From a virus: DNA of 31,900 nucleotides. A model generated the notes under the pieces. The model had not been told where the DNA came from and ran no database searches. It saw only the letters and a program-made list of their open reading frames with translations. Location: positions 1 to 31,900 of IMG/VR virus record IMGVR_UViG_3300042310_000286; one strand, written 5' to 3'. Positions within the stretch are counted from its first letter, which is position 1. The number at the start of each line of letters is the position of its first letter. Below, in pieces: positions 14,130 to 26,586 of the stretch. The position numbers were made by a program, and so were the translations under genes.

Positions 14130-15710
14130 TTAAATGGTGTATTCCCACCTTATATTTCCACAATCATAAATTCTATAAATTTTACGTTCAAACATTATTT
14201 GTTGTTCCGTCATATTTCTATCATAACCTTCATTAATTAACATAGTTTTTCTATACCCAAATCTATGTTTTCTTAAATCATTTATCACATACCAATAATT
14301 AGGTTTTGATTGTGATATCTTTTTAAATCCTATTTTATTATACATTCCCCCATCAAAAATCCTAATATCGGAATATGATACAATATTATGGGGTTGATAT
14401 GTTTTGATAAAGTATTTTAATAATTTTGATGCTCCGCCAATAACATTATGACCTAATAAATTACAAAAACGATTTAGTTCCCACTCAGTATTTTTACCAC
14501 CCATTATAATCCTCCCTCTTGAGAAAGTCATTACAGAAACTATTTTACCTTCGTTGAATAATCCAATTTTTACTTTTGAATTTACGTTTCCTTGTATGTG
14601 GTTTTCATTAAGGAATTTTTTTGCTGTTTTTGAATCTACCTCTCTTATCTCACATTTTCTACCGTGTATTTTATTATTAATAAGTCCTAATTTACCAGTT
14701 AAAATTGATTTAACAATATCCTTCTTATATATCCACTCATCCTCAAAAATATGAATTAGTTTTATGTCATTTTCCTCACAATCAATTGTTTTTTGTAAAT
14801 GATAATTTTTACTTTTAAATAACTCATTATGCCAATAAACACCATTAACTTCAATACCAATATTATATTTTGGTAAAAAAATGTCTATTTCTGTTTTTTT
14901 ATTTGGTATTTTTTTATTCGTTTCGTAAAGTATGTTAAATTCATCTAAAAATTTACATATCTCGTTTTCATAACCACTTCTATTTGATGATCCGATAGGG
15001 TTACATTTAGTACATATTATATAATTTCTCCTATATCTTTCATATAGTAATTGTTTAGTTAATTCAGAAGTATGGTTACATATAGGACACAAAACACTTA
15101 ATAAATCCTTTTTAATATCGGTAAAAGTAATATCAGGATATAACCCTTTAAATGTTTCTATTATTTTATTTTTATAGTTATTTGTCTTACTATAATTTTC
15201 ATCACCATATTGATTTAAACAAGTTTTCTTATATTTTTCAATATTATTGTAATTTTTATTACCATATTTTTCTAATTTAGTTTTTTGACTTTTTTTAACA
15301 TTATTATAATTTTCATCACCAAAATTAATTAATTTTGTCTTTTTTTGTTTTATGGTGAATTCTTTATGTTGGGGGTAGAAATCAATTCCGTATTTTTTTT
15401 GAAATGTTTCTTTTTGTCTCTTTACCATTTCAGGTTTATTATCATTAATACATTTTAATGAGCAGAAACTACCGTAAGGTTTGTCAAACCTATTTCTAAA
15501 TTTTAATTCTGAATTACAAGTAACACATTTTGGTCTTTCAACTATGTTATTATAATAAAACCATATTTTTTCTTTAAAGTTTAAATTTAAAGGTAAATTA
15601 ATAGAATGGTCAATTATTTTTTTGTGTAAAGTTGGGTAGTTTTTAAAAACCCATTCCTCATTAGTTTTATATCCCGACTTGTTATCCGTAATAAAAAAAG
15701 TAAAATCCAT
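14130..15710 (-). CDS. Free-standing EDxHD/Vsr-like homing endonuclease with GNAT-like C-terminus
   Basis: A 526-aa mosaic protein. Cys62, Cys65, Cys83 and Cys87 form a probable zinc finger; residues about 105-186 hold four copies of a basic 18-22-aa repeat (cores NFGDENYNNV, KYGNKNYNNI, QYGDENYSKT), probably DNA-binding. A second Cys pair set lies at 208/211 and 233/236. The nuclease core spans about 245-340: TEIDIFLPKYNIGIEVNG, then VYWH (His294), H304/K307 and FEDEW (322-326), the order seen in Vsr-like homing enzymes. Residues about 350-475 resemble the GNAT/Mom-like domain often attached to phage homing enzymes (ELNRFC, GGASKLLKYF, SYSDIRIFDGG, GFKK). It lies between tail tube and gp26-like genes, is more A/T-rich than both, and has its own promoter-like motif, consistent with a mobile insertion into the tail operon. 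It likely cuts intron-less alleles of a neighbouring gene; the target is unknown. Confidence 0.82.
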   Translation of the reverse strand: MDFTFFITDNKSGYKTNEEWVFKNYPTLHKKIIDHSINLPLNLNFKEKIWFYYNNIVERPKCVTCNSELKFRNRFDKPYGSFCSLKCINDNKPEMVKRQKETFQKKYGIDFYPQHKEFTIKQKKTKLINFGDENYNNVKKSQKTKLEKYGNKNYNNIEKYKKTCLNQYGDENYSKTNNYKNKIIETFKGLYPDITFTDIKKDLLSVLCPICNHTSELTKQLLYERYRRNYIICTKCNPIGSSNRSGYENEICKFLDEFNILYETNKKIPNKKTEIDIFLPKYNIGIEVNGVYWHNELFKSKNYHLQKTIDCEENDIKLIHIFEDEWIYKKDIVKSILTGKLGLINNKIHGRKCEIREVDSKTAKKFLNENHIQGNVNSKVKIGLFNEGKIVSVMTFSRGRIIMGGKNTEWELNRFCNLLGHNVIGGASKLLKYFIKTYQPHNIVSYSDIRIFDGGMYNKIGFKKISQSKPNYWYVINDLRKHRFGYRKTMLINEGYDRNMTEQQIMFERKIYRIYDCGNIRWEYTI

Positions 15711-17309: not shown

Positions 17310-20300
17310 TTAGATATTTTCAAATGATGCTCCAGTTGGAGTAATGTAGAATGTAATGTCAATGAATTCCAACGCTCTTGTTGGTTTAACATAAATTGAA
17401 CCTACTAATCTATTATTATCCAAATCTTCAGGTGAGCTTGATACAGTTACTCTGAAATCATATAGACCTCTATCTCTTCTTATTGAATCCAAGATTGGAT
17501 TAACAGAGTCCAAGAATTGTTGTCTTACAATATCATCGTTTTGTTCAAACAACAATCTAACAGAAACCGCAGATATCAATTTACGTGCTTGTAATAACAA
17601 TCTTCTAACATTGATTCTATCAAGAGCTGATTGTTTAACTTGTAGAGTTTTGTTACCCCAAATTACAGTACCAACATCAGAGAAAGTCGCAATTGGATTA
17701 ATTCTACCTTCATACAATACGTCTCTATCTTCTTGTGATAGTTTCTTTCTTGCCTTAACAGCATTTACAATACCTCTTGTGTAACCCGCAGTTGCGAACC
17801 AAGGGAAAGCGATATTATCAGTCAATGCTAAGTTTCTTGTAACCTCAGCAGTTGGTGGAATATAAATCTGTGTATTGTTAACCGTATCTCTAGTTAATAC
17901 CCAAGGGTAGTAAGTAGCCGTGTAGTTAGAATCAATACCTGAGTTATATAGGTTATCAACCGCTTCTTGTGGTAAGATTTGGTCTTGTTCAATACCCGTT
18001 GTTGATGTGAATAAATCGTAGTCAGGTGTTGTTACGATATAAATTGAATCCGCTCTGTCTAACTCAACCATTGTGATTGCGTTTTCAGTTAAGTTTGAAT
18101 TATTAACATAATCAATACCAGGAGTAACGAACACATTTATATTTACCGCTTCAGGGTTTGCGAAAGTTCTTATACCCAATAGGTAAGCGTAGTAGTCAGT
18201 ATTTGCCCAATCAACAGAGTTTTTATCTATGGTGATATTTCTAAATAATCCAGCACCTGTTGCAGTTGGGTATCTGTCAGAAGTACAAGCCCCTTTCTTA
18301 TATCCAGATGCTCCGAGTACGAATCTATCTTCATTTGTTCTTGATTCTCTGTATATATCCCAACCATCAAAACCACCATAAGGTAGTACTGTGAATTTTC
18401 TTGCGAAAACTCTATAGTAAGGATTTGTTTGGTCTTCAGGATCAGATTGGAATGTAGCATCACCGACTTCAAATGCCGATGTTCCACTTGTGAAGTAACT
18501 ATTAGCAATAGTAACCGCACTTGCCTCTTTATCCATATGGAAACCTTTTGTTTGGTAATTCCAATTGTCAAAATCACCACTAGTTGTACATAAATCCAAA
18601 GGATTTTGTTTACCCTTGTATTCTAAGAAGTCAGAATCAATACCTATCTTATCGGAGAAACCTAAATAGGTTCTTCTGATATTATCACCCGAAGATGTTG
18701 TTGAATTGTCACCCCCGTTTGTAGTTCCAAAAGGTGGATTATAAACAACTTCGCCCGGAAAGTTATACTTAGTTTTGTAAATTGCGAATGGTGGAATCGC
18801 TCCACTATATTCTCTCATTACATAACCCTGAAATCCACAAGGAAGTGCGTCAATCGGTGCGTTTTCATTAACCTCAACCATAACGTATTTTGAAAGTAAT
18901 GCATATTCACCGTTTGATGAACCTATTTTCTTAGCAATATAGTTATTAAGATTTGGATCCATTGAACAGTTCGTATATTTTTCAATAACAACAGGATTTG
19001 AATCCGTATCGTAGAAATCTCTAACTAATACATCAAATGTTCCGTTTGCGAATGACATATTTGCTAATGAAATTTTTACTTCGGTGTTCGCCGCGCTACC
19101 ATCAGAAATTAATATGAATTTAAATAACTCATATATTGAATTACCTCGTAATTCGGATACAACCCAAGGTGTTGATGGTGTTTGATATTTCTCTAAGTAG
19201 TTAGCAATTGATGTAACATCTGCACTTCTCGCGTCGTCCAAAGCGATTAAATCACAACTTAATCCTCTGATGTATCCTTTATTATATGCCCATCTTAACA
19301 TTGATGAATATCTTTCTTCAACAAAGATTGGGAAGTCAGTTCTTGATTTATCAAAGTTTCCAATACCAAATACTTTTGTGATGAAGTTTGAATTTGACGA
19401 ATCCATTGATGTTTCAAATTCAAAAGTTTGACTATTTTTAGTAATACCTGAAAGTTTGAATGTTGAGAATGGATTCTTAGTAACCGCAGAATAAGCTCCT
19501 GTACAAATCATATCTAAATCAGTTGTTCCTGATACTTGATAAACAGGTCCGTTATCTGAACTGTAAGTCGCAATACCTCTTGATCTTAATGTAGATACAA
19601 CAACATTGTCATATTCTGTGAATGACATACCACTGAAGTATTGCACACGTAACTCACCCCAAGTCACCCAATATGTATCCGACCCTTGTGATAACAAAGT
19701 CTCACCATTTTGTTGGTTAATACAAAAAGAGAATCCATTGTAAGTTCCATCACTATTAGTAAAGGTTGCATAATACCAAGGGTCATTTAACGGACTTGTT
19801 AATGTATTACCTGACAATGGTATACTTGGGACTCCGAAAGCGTTTGTTTCTCCCGTATACGCCCCTAAAGTTGCATAAGTTGCGTCCGTTGCCGAACCCC
19901 AATATGTTATTTTAGGTATATCAGTTGCCGATCCTCCGTTATTAACAACATAATCAACCAAACTGAAAATCCAATTATTAATATCTTCTCTAATGGTTGA
20001 TGTACTTCCATCAAACAACTGATATGGTATATCAAGTAAATTATCAATATCAGACCCTAAAGATTCAAACGCATATGTATAATCAGAAAATTTAACCTCT
20101 GTTAATGTTGTATCACCAATCGCGCTAAAATTAATTTGATTAACGACACTTGTAGATCCTGTCGGGGCAATTGTTGATGAATCAACATTCGCAATTGTTG
20201 TTATTGACCAAGATGGTCCCGCATCATAACCAGATAATCCTAATATCCTTGATACGAATAATTGGTTAGATTGTTGTAAATATGATTTAGCAATGTATGC

Positions 20301-20528
20301 CGCTTCATATTTAGGAATTTGTGTATTAACAAATTTTTCTGGTGATGTACCACCGAAAATTGTCGTGAATTCGTCAAAATTCTTAACGAATATAGGTTCA
20401 AATGCGGGCCCTTTTAATGTTTCCCCCACAATACCTAATGTTGTGATACCAACACTTGAAGCCACGAAGCTTAAATCAACTTCTGATGTGTAGACCCCAG
20501 GTGATACGAATACTTTTGTATTTGCCAT
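17310..20528 (-). CDS. Tail sheath protein (gp18-like)
   Basis: A 1072-aa contractile sheath protein, well above T4 gp18 (659 aa). The N-terminus has the sheath hallmark FVSPGVYTSEVDLSF, followed by GIVGETLKGPAFEPIFVKN and FGG. The C-terminal domain that forms the inner core is typical: FSDVGTVIWGNKTL, ALDRINVRRLLLQARKLISA, LLFEQND, FLDSVNPILDSI and a final beta strand ALEFIDITFYITP. Extra length lies in the middle (about 110-700), probably surface domains. It is the first gene of the sheath-tube run and has a divergent upstream region shared with a small plus-strand gene. Polymerised sheath contracts to drive the tube through the host envelope. Confidence 0.95.
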   Translation of the reverse strand: MANTKVFVSPGVYTSEVDLSFVASSVGITTLGIVGETLKGPAFEPIFVKNFDEFTTIFGGTSPEKFVNTQIPKYEAAYIAKSYLQQSNQLFVSRILGLSGYDAGPSWSITTIANVDSSTIAPTGSTSVVNQINFSAIGDTTLTEVKFSDYTYAFESLGSDIDNLLDIPYQLFDGSTSTIREDINNWIFSLVDYVVNNGGSATDIPKITYWGSATDATYATLGAYTGETNAFGVPSIPLSGNTLTSPLNDPWYYATFTNSDGTYNGFSFCINQQNGETLLSQGSDTYWVTWGELRVQYFSGMSFTEYDNVVVSTLRSRGIATYSSDNGPVYQVSGTTDLDMICTGAYSAVTKNPFSTFKLSGITKNSQTFEFETSMDSSNSNFITKVFGIGNFDKSRTDFPIFVEERYSSMLRWAYNKGYIRGLSCDLIALDDARSADVTSIANYLEKYQTPSTPWVVSELRGNSIYELFKFILISDGSAANTEVKISLANMSFANGTFDVLVRDFYDTDSNPVVIEKYTNCSMDPNLNNYIAKKIGSSNGEYALLSKYVMVEVNENAPIDALPCGFQGYVMREYSGAIPPFAIYKTKYNFPGEVVYNPPFGTTNGGDNSTTSSGDNIRRTYLGFSDKIGIDSDFLEYKGKQNPLDLCTTSGDFDNWNYQTKGFHMDKEASAVTIANSYFTSGTSAFEVGDATFQSDPEDQTNPYYRVFARKFTVLPYGGFDGWDIYRESRTNEDRFVLGASGYKKGACTSDRYPTATGAGLFRNITIDKNSVDWANTDYYAYLLGIRTFANPEAVNINVFVTPGIDYVNNSNLTENAITMVELDRADSIYIVTTPDYDLFTSTTGIEQDQILPQEAVDNLYNSGIDSNYTATYYPWVLTRDTVNNTQIYIPPTAEVTRNLALTDNIAFPWFATAGYTRGIVNAVKARKKLSQEDRDVLYEGRINPIATFSDVGTVIWGNKTLQVKQSALDRINVRRLLLQARKLISAVSVRLLFEQNDDIVRQQFLDSVNPILDSIRRDRGLYDFRVTVSSSPEDLDNNRLVGSIYVKPTRALEFIDITFYITPTGASFENI

Positions 20529-21849: not shown

Positions 21850-22215
21850 TTATTTATCTGAGAATACTCCTAATTTAATTCCTTTATTACCTATTTGTTG
21901 GTCAACCCACTTCATTATATATCTAACAGTTTCATATTTATCAAGATTAAATAATCTATGTATATCGTCCAATAATCCGTAGTAAATTTCACCATTAATA
22001 TAATATGTTTTATTCTGTCTAAGTGATATTGAATGTGATTGATACATTTCTTTGATTATTCTTGTACCTTTACCATTAACCCAATATCTAAACCTATAAG
22101 AATCTTTTAAATTATCATCACCATAATCGTTATCGGTTGTTAATTTACCAACTGATGTCGTTATCCATTTAAGGATAATCCTATCCATTTGCTCCTGACT
22201 TATTTTAACATTCAT
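21850..22215 (-). CDS. Unknown 121-aa protein in the neck gene run
   Basis: No family recognised. The N-terminus MNVKISQEQMDRIILKWI is an amphipathic helix; a central charged/aromatic region (DSYRFRYWVNGKG) is followed by YYINGEIYYGLLDDIHRLFNL and a C-terminal helix YIMKWVDQQIG. No signal peptide, Cys cluster or membrane segment is seen. It lies two bases from the gp14-like stop and two bases from the gp15-like start, so co-expression with neck proteins and a connector or chaperone role are likely (inference). Confidence 0.7.
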   Translation of the reverse strand: MNVKISQEQMDRIILKWITTSVGKLTTDNDYGDDNLKDSYRFRYWVNGKGTRIIKEMYQSHSISLRQNKTYYINGEIYYGLLDDIHRLFNLDKYETVRYIMKWVDQQIGNKGIKLGVFSDK

Positions 22216-22734: not shown

Positions 22735-25638
22735 TTGATAAATATACATTTATTTGTTATTTTTAATAAAAAGTTATCATTGGAAAGTTCCGCAATTTTT
22801 GAACAGAAGGCGTTAGAGATATTAAATACTTACGAGGGGGGGAATAACTATATCCTTAAGTTAAAACAACAACAACAAAACAATAAGAAGTTTTATCCCA
22901 CAAGATCACAATCAGATTATATTATTACTTATCATAATGAAACCCCAAAAATAGCAAGAAGATGGGTTGATTTGGATCCTTATTTTGCGAAGAAATTTGC
23001 TGATGAAAAATTATTTAGGGAAGTACCCGATAAGATATGGGTTGAGAAATTATTAATTGAGAAAGAAAAGTCGTATCATATTTGGGGTAGGTTTTTTGAA
23101 ACTGAGGAGATTCACGATATTTGGATGCCAAAAGGTGCGTTAATTAAAACCCACACCGTAGAGAAAGTTAATATTGATTATACAAAATATTCCCATCGTC
23201 CCCCACTTACACACCAAATAGAGGCAATAGAAAAACTTGCGGGTAGTAAGAGATATATATTGGCTGACGATATGGGTTTGGGCAAGTTTTTGCCAGTGAA
23301 AACTCCAGTATATACCCCAACAGGTACAAAAAAAATTGGGGATATTAAAATTGGTGATAAAGTCATTGGTAGTGATGGTAAACCATATAATGTAATTGGT
23401 GTATTTCCGCAAGGAGTTAAGGAAACATATAAAATAACATTTAATGATGGGTTTTCAATTTTATCAGGAGACGAACACTTATGGTCTGTTTCATCCCCTA
23501 ATTATAGTAAAAATAGAAAAAATGAAAGACGAAAAAAATCTTTAGTATTATCAACCAAACAAATGTATGAGGGTGGTAAAATTAAAGTTAAAGGTATTGA
23601 CTATAATGAAGATAAGGAGTATGAAATTGAAACTTATTATAAATCACCAAACGGAAATAATAAATGGCAAATACCAATTGTTGAACCAATTCAATTTGAA
23701 CGAAATGATATTCTTCCGATTGACCCTTATTTGTTAGGTCTTGGTTTAGGTGATGGTTCATTCAATAAAAAAAATATTAAATTTTCAGTTCATAAAGATG
23801 ACTACGATGTCCTATTCGGATTATTAAATTTAAAAGAAAACAAACCACAAGGTAACAAAAGAATTGGATATATTAATGTTGGGTCATTTTTATATAACTT
23901 GGGTATTGAACATACTCGTTCTTACAATAAATTTATTCCAGAAATATACAAATATTCGTCAGTTGAAAATAGATTATCTATACTACAAGGATTAATGGAT
24001 ACTGATGGGCATTGTATGTTCAACGGAAAAGATAATTTTTTAGGGACTGAATTTTGCACTATTTCAAAACAACTTTGTGATGATGTAGTTGAAATTGTCC
24101 AAACATTAGGAGGTATTGCAAGAGTTAAAACTCGTATTCCAACTTATACACATAATGGGATTAAAAAGAAAGGTAAGTTAGCTTATAGGGTTAATATTAA
24201 ATTACCAAAGGGTATGAATCCATTTAGATTAAAAAGAAAATCTGAAAGATATGTTGAACAAAAAAAATATCCAACAGGTAGGTATATTAAAAATATTGAA
24301 AAGGTTGGATTTGAAGAGAGCGTTTGTATTTCAGTTGATTCTCCCGATAAATTATATGTCACAGAACATTGTATTGTTACTCATAACACAACCTCAACAA
24401 TAATTGCGGCATTAGAAACGGGAGCAAAAAAAGTTTTGATTATTTGCCCCGCTTCACTAAAATTAAATTGGGAAAGGGAGATACGTAATTACACAGATAA
24501 GAGTGTCTATATATGTGAGGGTAAACATTTTTCCTCCGAAGATGATTTTGTTATTATTAATTATGATATCATAAAAAACTTTCACGATATAAAGGACAAA
24601 GAAAATTCACAGATATTAAAGGCAGGTTTTGATTTGGTTGTTATTGATGAGGCTCATTACATAAAGAACGCACAAGCCCAACGAACCAAATTAATAAACA
24701 ATTTTGTTAAAGATGTTAAGAGGTTATGGTTATTGACGGGAACCCCAATAACATCAAGACCGATTGATTATTTTAACTTATTGAGTTTGGTTGAATCACC
24801 CGTCGCTCAGAATTGGTTAGCTTATGTTATTAGATTTTGCGAAGGATATCAATTTAGAGCGGGTCAGAGAAAGGTTTGGAATGTGTCGGGGGCATCAAAT
24901 TTGGAAGAATTAAGAGATAGAACATCAAAACAAATATTACGTAGATTAAAGACGGATGTATTGGATTTACCCGACAAATTAATTAACCCCGTATATTTGA
25001 GGTTAAAATCAAAGATGTATGAGGAATTGATGGGTGAATATTATGATTGGTATAACAATAAAAAGGAGGAGTCATCGTCATTAACAATACAATTTTCAAA
25101 GTTAATGAAAGTTAGACAAACCATTGCCGATGAAAAAGTTGCATCAACAATAGAACTTGCCGAAAATATTATTGAGCAAGGTAAGAAGGTTATTATATTT
25201 AGTAACTTCACAGAACCATTAAAGAGAATCCACGAACATTTTGGAAAACAATCCGTATATTTGGATGGATCAACCTCAAAATTTGGAAGACAAAAGTCAG
25301 TTGATGACTTTCAGGATAACGAAAAGATAATGGTGTTTTGTGGGAATATTCGCGCGGCGGGAGTGGGAATAACATTAACCGCGGCGGAAGTGGTTATTAT
25401 GAATGATTTATCTTTTGTCCCTGGTGATTTATCTCAAGCCGAAGACCGAGCATATCGTTACGGGCAAAAGAATAATGTATTAGTATATTACCCATTATTC
25501 GTTAATACAATTGAAGGGGTTATATACGATATGGTTAATGAGAAGAAAAAAAACATTAGCACTGTAATGGGTGATGATATGGACGGTAAGGCCGACTTTT
25601 TCGCAAATATTATGAACGAAATTAATTCAACAAAATAA
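22735..25638 (+). CDS. SNF2-family helicase interrupted by an intein
   Basis: The 967-aa precursor contains a 367-aa intein (residues 185-551), leaving a 600-aa host protein. The Walker A motif is split: DDMGLGK184 | TTST after splicing. Other motifs are DEAH (VVIDEAHYIKN, 638-641), LLTGTPI (667-672), FSNF/LDGSTS (823-847) and QAEDRAYRYGQ (901-911), the last typical of SNF2/SMARCAL1-like enzymes rather than T4 UvsW. Such ATPases remodel or anneal DNA at forks and recombination intermediates. The N-terminal 140 residues include a Gln-rich run and RSQSDYIITYH plus YHIWGRFF. No ATG occurs before Met131; possible starts are TTG at 22735 or TTG at 22780. The later one fits better with the minus-strand gene starting at 22730. 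It is the first gene of the plus-strand run. Confidence 0.85.
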   Translation: MINIHLFVIFNKKLSLESSAIFEQKALEILNTYEGGNNYILKLKQQQQNNKKFYPTRSQSDYIITYHNETPKIARRWVDLDPYFAKKFADEKLFREVPDKIWVEKLLIEKEKSYHIWGRFFETEEIHDIWMPKGALIKTHTVEKVNIDYTKYSHRPPLTHQIEAIEKLAGSKRYILADDMGLGKFLPVKTPVYTPTGTKKIGDIKIGDKVIGSDGKPYNVIGVFPQGVKETYKITFNDGFSILSGDEHLWSVSSPNYSKNRKNERRKKSLVLSTKQMYEGGKIKVKGIDYNEDKEYEIETYYKSPNGNNKWQIPIVEPIQFERNDILPIDPYLLGLGLGDGSFNKKNIKFSVHKDDYDVLFGLLNLKENKPQGNKRIGYINVGSFLYNLGIEHTRSYNKFIPEIYKYSSVENRLSILQGLMDTDGHCMFNGKDNFLGTEFCTISKQLCDDVVEIVQTLGGIARVKTRIPTYTHNGIKKKGKLAYRVNIKLPKGMNPFRLKRKSERYVEQKKYPTGRYIKNIEKVGFEESVCISVDSPDKLYVTEHCIVTHNTTSTIIAALETGAKKVLIICPASLKLNWEREIRNYTDKSVYICEGKHFSSEDDFVIINYDIIKNFHDIKDKENSQILKAGFDLVVIDEAHYIKNAQAQRTKLINNFVKDVKRLWLLTGTPITSRPIDYFNLLSLVESPVAQNWLAYVIRFCEGYQFRAGQRKVWNVSGASNLEELRDRTSKQILRRLKTDVLDLPDKLINPVYLRLKSKMYEELMGEYYDWYNNKKEESSSLTIQFSKLMKVRQTIADEKVASTIELAENIIEQGKKVIIFSNFTEPLKRIHEHFGKQSVYLDGSTSKFGRQKSVDDFQDNEKIMVFCGNIRAAGVGITLTAAEVVIMNDLSFVPGDLSQAEDRAYRYGQKNNVLVYYPLFVNTIEGVIYDMVNEKKKNISTVMGDDMDGKADFFANIMNEINSTK
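22738..22744 (-). promoter_or_regulatory. TATTTAT motif before the gp14-like gene
   Basis: The minus strand reads GTATATTTATCAATAATATGG; the motif ends 7 bases before the ATG. The site overlaps the presumed 5' end of the divergent helicase gene. If it is a -10 element, the transcript would be almost leaderless. Confidence 0.4.
23287..24387 (+). mobile_element. Class 3 intein with LAGLIDADG homing endonuclease
   Basis: A 367-aa intein inserted in the P-loop Gly-Lys/Thr junction. It starts FLPVKTPVYTPTG (Phe at position 1, not Cys/Ser) and ends HCIVTHN followed by Thr+1. Block B reads GDEHLWSV (His248, Trp250), block F reads ESVCISVDSPDKLYV (Cys531 at the F:4 position). Trp B:12, Cys F:4 and Thr+1 are the signature of class 3 inteins, which begin splicing from the block F Cys. 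Two LAGLIDADG motifs are intact: YLLGLGLGDGSF (Asp340) and ILQGLMDTDGH (Asp424). The endonuclease is therefore probably active and the element mobile. Confidence 0.9.
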
Positions 25639-25673
25639 TATTAGGAATAATCACACTTTTATACATTTTAAGA

Positions 25674-25684
25674 TATTTATCATT
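25674..25684 (+). promoter_or_regulatory. TATTTAT motif before the 54-aa RHH gene
   Basis: The plus strand reads AAGATATTTATCATTATGGG; the motif is only 4 bases from the ATG at 25685. The 46-base gap after the helicase stop has no other feature. Confidence 0.4.
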
Positions 25685-25849
25685 ATGGGAAGAAAATTAA
25701 AAACAGAGGAAGAAAAAAAAACTAAAGTATCCGTGGCGTTAGATAGGGAACTATTAGCGTATTATAAAAATCTTCATATTAATTTATCTTCACTCGTTAA
25801 TCAACTACTTAAAGATTATAGAAAAAATGGAAACAAAGATTTGTACTAA
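25685..25849 (+). CDS. Small ribbon-helix-helix-like protein (54 aa)
   Basis: The peptide starts MGRKLKTEEEKKTKVSVALD and continues with a helix ELLAYYKNLHINL, then SSLVNQLLKDYRKNG. The basic N-terminus, KVSVALD strand and two helices fit the CopG-type ribbon-helix-helix fold. Its end (TAA at 25847) overlaps the HNH gene start by 23 bases. This suggests it either regulates the downstream unit or is a hitch-hiking partner of the endonuclease. It is unlike the 54-aa protein at 20646 in sequence, though equal in length. Confidence 0.65.
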   Translation: MGRKLKTEEEKKTKVSVALDRELLAYYKNLHINLSSLVNQLLKDYRKNGNKDLY

Positions 25850-26483
25850 ATGTAATGAAGAAAAAATGGTTTGTTATTTCGGTTTTCACAAAAGGAGTAA
25901 AGACGGTAAACGAGGTTCTTGTAAGGAATGTGAAAGTAAAAAAATTAAAGAATGGAGACAAAATAATCCTGAAAAATTAAAATTACAAAAACAAAGATAC
26001 CTTAAAAAATATCCTCAAAAAAATTTAAATAGAGGTAAAGAATATAGAAAAAATAATAAAGAAAAAGTAATTGATCGGTCAACTAAATGGAGAATATCCA
26101 ATTCTGGATATGCATCAATTTATTATCAAATTAATAAAAATAAACTAAATAAACAAATTTTAATTAAGAAAAAAAATGACATAATTTTTAATTTAAAATG
26201 TAATTGCCGAAGTAAAATAAATAAAATATTAGGATCAAAAAAATTTGAAAAAACATTTGAAATTATTGGTTGTACTCCACAATTCTTAAAAGAACATTTA
26301 GAAAATCAATTTATTAATGGTATGGATTGGGGTAATCACGGATTATTTGGGTGGCATATTGACCACATTATCCCGTTATCATCCGCAAAGACGGAAGAAG
26401 AACTATATAAGTTATGTCATTACTCTAACCTACAACCACTATGGGCTGAAGATAATTTAAAAAAAGGTAGTAAAATTATATAG
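25827..26483 (+). CDS. HNH homing endonuclease
   Basis: A 218-aa protein with an N-terminal zinc-ribbon (CTKCNEEK ... CKEC, Cys residues at 5, 8, 33 and 36), a long Lys/Asn-rich helical linker (about 40-130) and a C-terminal HNH module: FGWHIDHIIPLSSA, then HYSNLQPLWAEDN and LKKGS. These are the residues of the H-N-H/N nuclease fold (the His-Asp-His triad, Asn in NLQPL, and Asn-Leu-Lys). Such proteins are commonly free-standing homing endonucleases in phage genomes. Its base composition is strikingly A-rich, unlike the flanking helicase. It overlaps the RHH gene by 23 bases and is followed by about 100 bases of non-coding DNA. Confidence 0.85.
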   Translation: METKICTKCNEEKMVCYFGFHKRSKDGKRGSCKECESKKIKEWRQNNPEKLKLQKQRYLKKYPQKNLNRGKEYRKNNKEKVIDRSTKWRISNSGYASIYYQINKNKLNKQILIKKKNDIIFNLKCNCRSKINKILGSKKFEKTFEIIGCTPQFLKEHLENQFINGMDWGNHGLFGWHIDHIIPLSSAKTEEELYKLCHYSNLQPLWAEDNLKKGSKII

Positions 26484-26586
26484 TGATATCAACAGGGGGG
26501 ATTTGGTGGAAGAGATGCTTAATTCAATCAACAATGTCGGGTAATTTAAAGATTACTGGATATTTATAGATAACCCCATAAATTAT
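26484..26586 (+). promoter_or_regulatory. Leader of the SOD-fusion gene with TATTTAT motif and possible coding remnant
   Basis: The 103-base gap holds GTAAT...ATTAC (26541-26556) and then GGATATTTATAGATAACC, with TATTTAT at 26561-26567, 19 bases before the ATG at 26587. The first 60 bases read in one frame as SDINRGDLVEEMLNSINNVG and stop, which looks protein-like. Confidence 0.4.

Follow-up and report, generated by a model that had tools for sequence, protein, structure and literature searches.

The window analysed here, the 31,900 bases of IMG/VR virus record IMGVR_UViG_3300042310_000286, carries T4-like tail tube, sheath and baseplate genes, and within it we recognize, with high confidence for a prediction from sequence, a class 3 intein that is complete, very probably active and equipped with a LAGLIDADG homing endonuclease, lodged in the Walker A motif (GK/T) of the SNF2-family helicase of a T4-like phage. 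That the P-loop of a phage SNF2 helicase holds a class 3 intein was already proposed in the initial annotation; residue signature, predicted fold, relatives and empty insertion site all agree with that proposal. Inteins of class 3, one of them in an Snf2 protein, and insertion at GK/T have each been published already, and this is no new kind of system; what is somewhat fresh is the scale of the natural allelic series at the first intein residue, where one site in near-identical exteins presents seven different first residues.

Intein anatomy and splicing class

The interrupted helicase ORF (22735-25638, + strand, 967 aa) has Pfam matches to the SNF2-related family PF00176 (E 7e-28; residues 160-797, with an intein-sized gap) and to Helicase_C PF00271 (E 1e-16; residues 808-910), while Hint and LAGLIDADG matches fall inside the insert and are weaker than those of the flanking helicase domains. 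The coordinates first proposed for the intein are exact to the base, both by translation and by comparison with empty alleles (Table 1); its last codon is the AAC of Asn551 (24385-24387). Shifted splice junctions were considered and rejected, because deletion of F185-N551 yields exactly the P-loop of the empty allele.

Table 1. Features of the intein-bearing helicase and of the adjoining second insertion, in window coordinates; counts refer to the 52 distinct same-site inteins obtained from the best 80 of 137 relatives.
Feature	Position	Strand	Evidence or remark
N-extein, SNF2 helicase N-part to P-loop (...DDMGLGK)	22735..23286	+	PF00176; start probably TTG 22783
Class 3 intein, 367 aa, F1...H366-N367 (ORF residues 185-551)	23287..24387	+	Translation, alignment, fold; absent from L088
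Intein residue 1, Phe (TTT; Phe185 of ORF), no class 1 nucleophile	23287..23289	+	Translation
His64, block B:10, triad base	23476..23478	+	Invariant, 52/52; aligns with H65 of MchDnaB1
Trp66 (Trp250 of ORF), block B:12, W of WCT	23482..23484	+	Invariant, 52/52; aligns with W67 of MchDnaB1
LAGLIDADG homing endonuclease domain, approximate limits	23704..24261	+	PF14528; full-length structural match to PI-SceI, Z 25.9
First LAGLIDADG motif LLGLGLGDG, Asp156	23731..23757	+	Asp invariant, 52/52
Second LAGLIDADG motif LQGLMDTDG, Asp240	23983..24009	+	Asp invariant, 52/52
Cys347 (Cys531 of ORF), block F:4, predicted initiating nucleophile and first branch point	24325..24327	+	52/52; aligns with C124 of MchDnaB1
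Thr365 (G:5, T of WCT; Thr549 of ORF), His366 (G:6), Asn367 (G:7)	24379..24387	+	Invariant, 52/52
Thr+1 (Thr552 of ORF), predicted second nucleophile, P-loop Thr of helicase	24388..24390	+	Thr in 52/52
C-extein, remaining SNF2 helicase	24388..25638	+	PF00176/PF00271; last ~60-70 codons apparently replaced along with arrival of downstream HNH cassette
Ribbon-helix-helix-like ORF, 54 aa	25685-25849		In second insertion
HNH endonuclease ORF	25827-26483		In second insertion

The class 3 signature as published consists of Trp at B:12, Cys at F:4 and Thr at G:5, usually accompanied by Ser or Thr at +1 (PMC5222942, PMC3196547), and the insert has all of these in W66, C347, T365 and Thr+1, together with a residue 1, Phe1, that is not a nucleophile. 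Phe185 had been read correctly as a residue 1 that is neither Cys nor Ser. The initial annotation had allowed that its reading would fail if Cys531 did not align at F:4; in the comparison with class 3 inteins that it suggested, Trp250 and Cys531 fall at B:12 and F:4, on W67 and C124 of class 3 MchDnaB1 (chain 6RIX), and Thr365 falls on T143 of the same chain. In MchDnaB1, H65, W67, C124 and T143 make up the Cys-His-Thr triad and the WCT tryptophan (PMC7664689). The His550-Asn551 end and Thr552 at +1 are present as claimed, but the threonine that defines class 3 is the one at G:5 (Thr549), which is also present and had been missed, not Thr+1.

Viral contigs yielded 137 relatives when searched with the intein by itself, which argues that the insert is not a product of chance. 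The best 80 were retained; 75 of them are complete inteins which, with the window's own, give 52 distinct inteins at the same site, 57-90% identical to the window's, and the close relatives all come from metagenome contigs. Throughout these 52 (from the best 80 of 137), there is no variation in the WCT tryptophan, cysteine and threonine, the B:10 histidine, the terminal His-Asn, Thr+1 or either LAGLIDADG aspartate; both endonuclease motifs are intact, as first stated. The two motifs with Asp156 and Asp240, the empty alleles and the lateral movement described below together point to a LAGLIDADG homing intein.

One alternative, which we consider very improbable, is a class 2-like route in which Thr+1 would attack the N-terminal junction directly and Cys347 would be dispensable. 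It would account for a Phe1 unable to start class 1 splicing alongside a +1 nucleophile, but it does not predict Cys347, Trp66 and Thr365 to be invariant in 52 of 52 distinct inteins (best 80 of 137), and tested class 3 inteins no longer splice at all once the F:4 Cys is changed to Ala (PMC5222942). Moreover, class 2 inteins are KlbA orthologues with Ala1, Cys+1, Asp at F:4 and Ser at G:6 (PMC4031507), whereas the window intein has Phe1, Thr+1, His366 at G:6 and an SNF2 extein.

The predicted fold is consistent with class 3. An AlphaFold2 model built on the 52-sequence alignment (mean pLDDT 90.5, pTM 0.89) matches class 3 6BS8 with Z 19.6 and an rmsd of 1.5 A over 123/125 residues, and class 3 6RIX with Z 19.3 at 2.0 A; in these two proteins, Msm DnaB-1 (6BS8) and Mch DnaB1 (6RIX/6RIY), the WCT residues and Cys-His-Thr triad align with the window's, and the splicing fold superposes at 1.5-2.0 A. 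Unlike the window intein, the Mycobacterium DnaB class 3 inteins are mini-inteins that lack an endonuclease, reside in DnaB and have Ser+1. At full length the model matches PI-SceI (the Sce VMA intein) with Z 25.9 over 331 residues at 3.7 A, and the two share the combination of a splicing domain with a two-motif LAGLIDADG domain; PI-SceI differs in being a class 1 intein of yeast with an extra DNA recognition region.

By sequence, the closest solved relative is class 1 gp41-1 (E 2.6e-12 for the wild type and 1.8e-13 for a WCT-grafted variant, versus 3e-10 for MchDnaB1), and the assignment to class 3, which we regard as very probable, rests on the signature and on the pattern at residue 1, not on the nearest neighbour. 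The cyanophage-like gp41-1 shares Thr at G:5 with the window intein but uses Cys1, with Phe at B:12 and Asp at F:4 in place of the class 3 residues, and grafting WCT onto it led to no productive splicing (PMC7664689).

Predicted splicing, selection and the host helicase

On the model of tested class 3 inteins (PMC5222942, PMC7664689), from which we infer the order of the splicing steps, Cys347, positioned by Trp66 and with His64 and Thr365 as its activators, would attack the Lys184-Phe185 bond to give a block F branched thioester. The N-part of the helicase would then move to Thr+1, forming a block G branched ester, after which Asn367 would cyclise, with assistance from His366, to free the 367-aa intein, and an O-to-N shift would leave ...GLGK-TT... 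and a P-loop that is intact again. At the DNA level, the endonuclease would cut intein-free GK/T alleles, and the repair that follows would either copy the intein in or swap in another allele.

The split of GK/T described at the outset is borne out, in that the insert sits between the P-loop Lys and Thr, and the nearest empty allele reads an uninterrupted GLGK-TT. The accompanying suggestion, that helicase activity depends on splicing, appears sound by position, and since the insert parts the Walker A Lys from its Thr, conservation of the helicase implies that the insert is removed. Conditional control of the helicase by splicing is no more than a possibility, by analogy with the mycobacterial DnaB class 3 inteins that are characterized as redox- or zinc-responsive (PMC6195587, PMC8557812, PMC7360933).

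Selection on both the intein and the helicase is strongly purifying. In comparisons with five close inteins, dN/dS is 0.02-0.11 for the splicing part and 0.08-0.19 for the endonuclease part, and between the window extein and the empty L088 it is 0.06 for the N part and 0.02 for the C part. These values bear on the idea of a decayed or cleavage-only intein that would leave the helicase inactive and be kept as a selfish endonuclease or through recent arrival, an idea for which the class 3 pseudogene Arth_1007 (PMC3196547) offers a precedent, and with which the difference in GC3 between intein (0.16) and helicase (0.31), indicating that the intein may be a recent arrival, is compatible. We nevertheless reject decay as highly improbable, on dN/dS (for the interrupted helicase against the empty allele, 0.02-0.06) and on intact frames, the interrupted helicase ORF having no stop and no frameshift; Arth_1007, for its part, is missing the F:4 Cys and the B:10 His, both of which are intact here.

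The expected spliced product needs one correction, in that its length is more likely ~584 aa than the 600 aa first given. The TTG at 22735 is a doubtful start, and the TTG at 22783, aligned in L088, L089 and L090, is the likelier one. Ahead of the helicase, at 22737-22745, lies a T4 late promoter-like GATAAATAT that overlaps the TTG at 22735, which again favours the later start.

Variation at residue 1

Among the 52 distinct inteins (best 80 of 137), residue 1 is Phe in 17, Gly in 11, Ala in 10, Cys in nine, Leu in three, and Met and Ser in one each, so that 42 have no nucleophile at this position. Residue 1 ranks 26th of 367 positions in variability across the 52, and residues 1-8 have a mean entropy of 2.07 bits versus 0.92 for residues 9-60. 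On an intein tree built from residue 16 onward, residue 1 changes at least 14 times, and the state 'C/S versus other' switches at least four times. A constrained F:4 with an unconstrained residue 1 is what a class 3 mechanism predicts and a class 1 mechanism forbids.

The initial annotation had itself wondered whether related inteins carry Cys1 and the window a sequencing error, and a class 1 intein whose Cys1 was lost to sequencing or assembly error, for which one could cite Cys1 in nine distinct close relatives (best 80 of 137) and a TTT codon one base from TGT, was rejected as exceedingly improbable, because Phe1 recurs in 17 of the 52 distinct inteins, from separate assemblies (including the independent contigs L001, L002, L005, L006 and L007), Gly, Ala, Leu or Met stands there in 25 further distinct inteins of the same best 80 of 137, and the WCT residues are invariant throughout, in Cys1 members too. 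Cys1 alleles are themselves not unprecedented, members with both Cys1/Ser1 and WCT having reportedly been described as class 3 by Tori and Perler (2011).

Empty alleles and probable homing and exchange

With the spliced helicase sequence as query, we found phage helicases without the insert, and the P-loop is unbroken in all 80 of the best extein matches. Two intein-free helicases, L088 and L089, are 96% and 95% identical to the window's over 429 aa of extein, and in the DNA of both, the equivalents of window positions 23285 and 24384 are directly adjacent.

Among intein carriers, the intein and extein trees are in conflict. L065 and L079 have exteins 99.1% alike and inteins 77% alike, with F and S at residue 1; L034 and L057 have exteins 96.7% alike and inteins 75% alike, with F and A. 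The extein nearest to the window's is that of L025 (81%), whose intein is 77% identical, and the nearest intein, that of L002 (90%), sits in a 74% extein. Such disagreement between intein and helicase trees is expected of an element that homes, but exchange is not free, since an overall correlation between the distances among inteins and those among exteins persists (Mantel r 0.68). Chimaeric assembly as the source of the conflict is unlikely, because contigs from different samples agree (L065/L066; L076/L078/L079). The simplest reading of these comparisons is one of replacement and lateral movement at a single GK/T site.

A broader proposal, which we offer tentatively and regard as rather doubtful, is that the GK/T site hosts a pool of interchangeable class 3 inteins shared among related phages, in which residue 1 would be catalytically unconstrained, members with Cys1 or Ser1 as well as Cys at F:4 could splice by either route, and inteins would often replace one another as well as invade empty sites. 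If this were true, those Cys1/Ser1 members would be living intermediates between class 1 and class 3. Regardless of that proposal, the series adds many same-site class 3 inteins in near-identical helicases (for example, L065 with F1 and L079 with S1), and natural alleles in an unchanged host protein allow the role of residue 1 to be tested without artificial point mutants. Same-site natural alleles likewise make it possible to test whether, as proposed, class 3 inteins descend from class 1 inteins in phages.

Relation to known inteins

Class 3 inteins are regarded as monophyletic and phage in origin (PMC4031507, PMC3196547), and GK/T is a "classic" P-loop insertion point (PMC5050341). A close published counterpart, by description, is the Deinococcus radiodurans Snf2 intein, also class 3 and in an SNF2 helicase, for which splicing and a block F branched intermediate are given as experimentally shown (Southworth and Perler 2002; Brace et al. 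2010, via PMC5222942, PMC3196547, PMC11219805); it lies on a bacterial chromosome, whereas the window intein is in a phage. A scan of genome contigs with the intein alignment returned only two distant relatives among bacterial homologues, L168 and L169, which lie in terminase-like proteins of an Acidobacteria MAG and of Pseudomethylobacillus, and did not return D. radiodurans. A PF05203 search gave matches in none of the 14 control genomes.

The same-site inteins of five annotated phages, Brevundimonas phage Papperlapapp, Erythrobacter phage L02, Vibrio phage 424E50-1, Mycobacterium phage Alice (gp175) and Pseudomonas phage PhiPA3 (gp233), share with the window the helicase insertion at GK/T (or S), W, C and T at B:12, F:4 and G:5, and a LAGLIDADG domain; they are ~34-38% identical to the window's intein, and their residue 1 is M, G or A; the genes bear no label other than helicase or 'DarB-like antirestriction'. 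A 484-kb uncultured phage keeps W, C, T and the GK junction, its residue 1 being among A, M or G like those of the distant annotated phages.

In L082-L087 and other records, genes labelled 'helicase', 'DarB-like antirestriction' or 'RNA polymerase-associated protein' hide an unannotated class 3 P-loop intein. The P-loop of many phage helicases that are recorded simply as helicase or as 'DarB-like antirestriction' thus carries an unannotated intein.

Second insertion and other window genes

Directly downstream of the intein-bearing helicase region lies a second insertion (25581-26485), absent from L088 and L089. Behind its HNH cassette, at ~26486-26545, the old helicase 3' end is still readable as it stands in L088 (98% identical), and the identity of the window to L088, 0.94 at 25200, is down to 0.63 at 25500. 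In the intein-free L151, an HNH gene directly follows the helicase end; the two are 78% and 81% identical, respectively, to their counterparts in the window. This layout fits a free-standing homing gene that would have arrived together with the helicase 3' end of its donor, pushing out the resident end, with L151 representing a donor-like arrangement.

No tRNA or Rfam family was found within the 31,900-base window. Other genes in it merit brief mention. A 516-aa phage protein (26587-28137) contains an Fe/Mn superoxide dismutase at residues 41-231 (PF00081, PF02777) and an extra C-terminal region of ~280 aa, phage matches spanning the superoxide dismutase part only. A 121-aa ORF of no assigned family (21850-22215) is absent from L088 and L089, where its flanking genes abut, so that it looks like a clean gain of a single gene. 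On the minus strand, a 526-aa homing-endonuclease-like gene (14130-15710; phrog_3339; Pfam DUF7487, Mom) sits between baseplate and tail tube genes, and the tail sheath protein (17310-20528, also minus strand) is unusually long at 1072 aa, its Pfam sheath domains lying only at residues ~786-1063.
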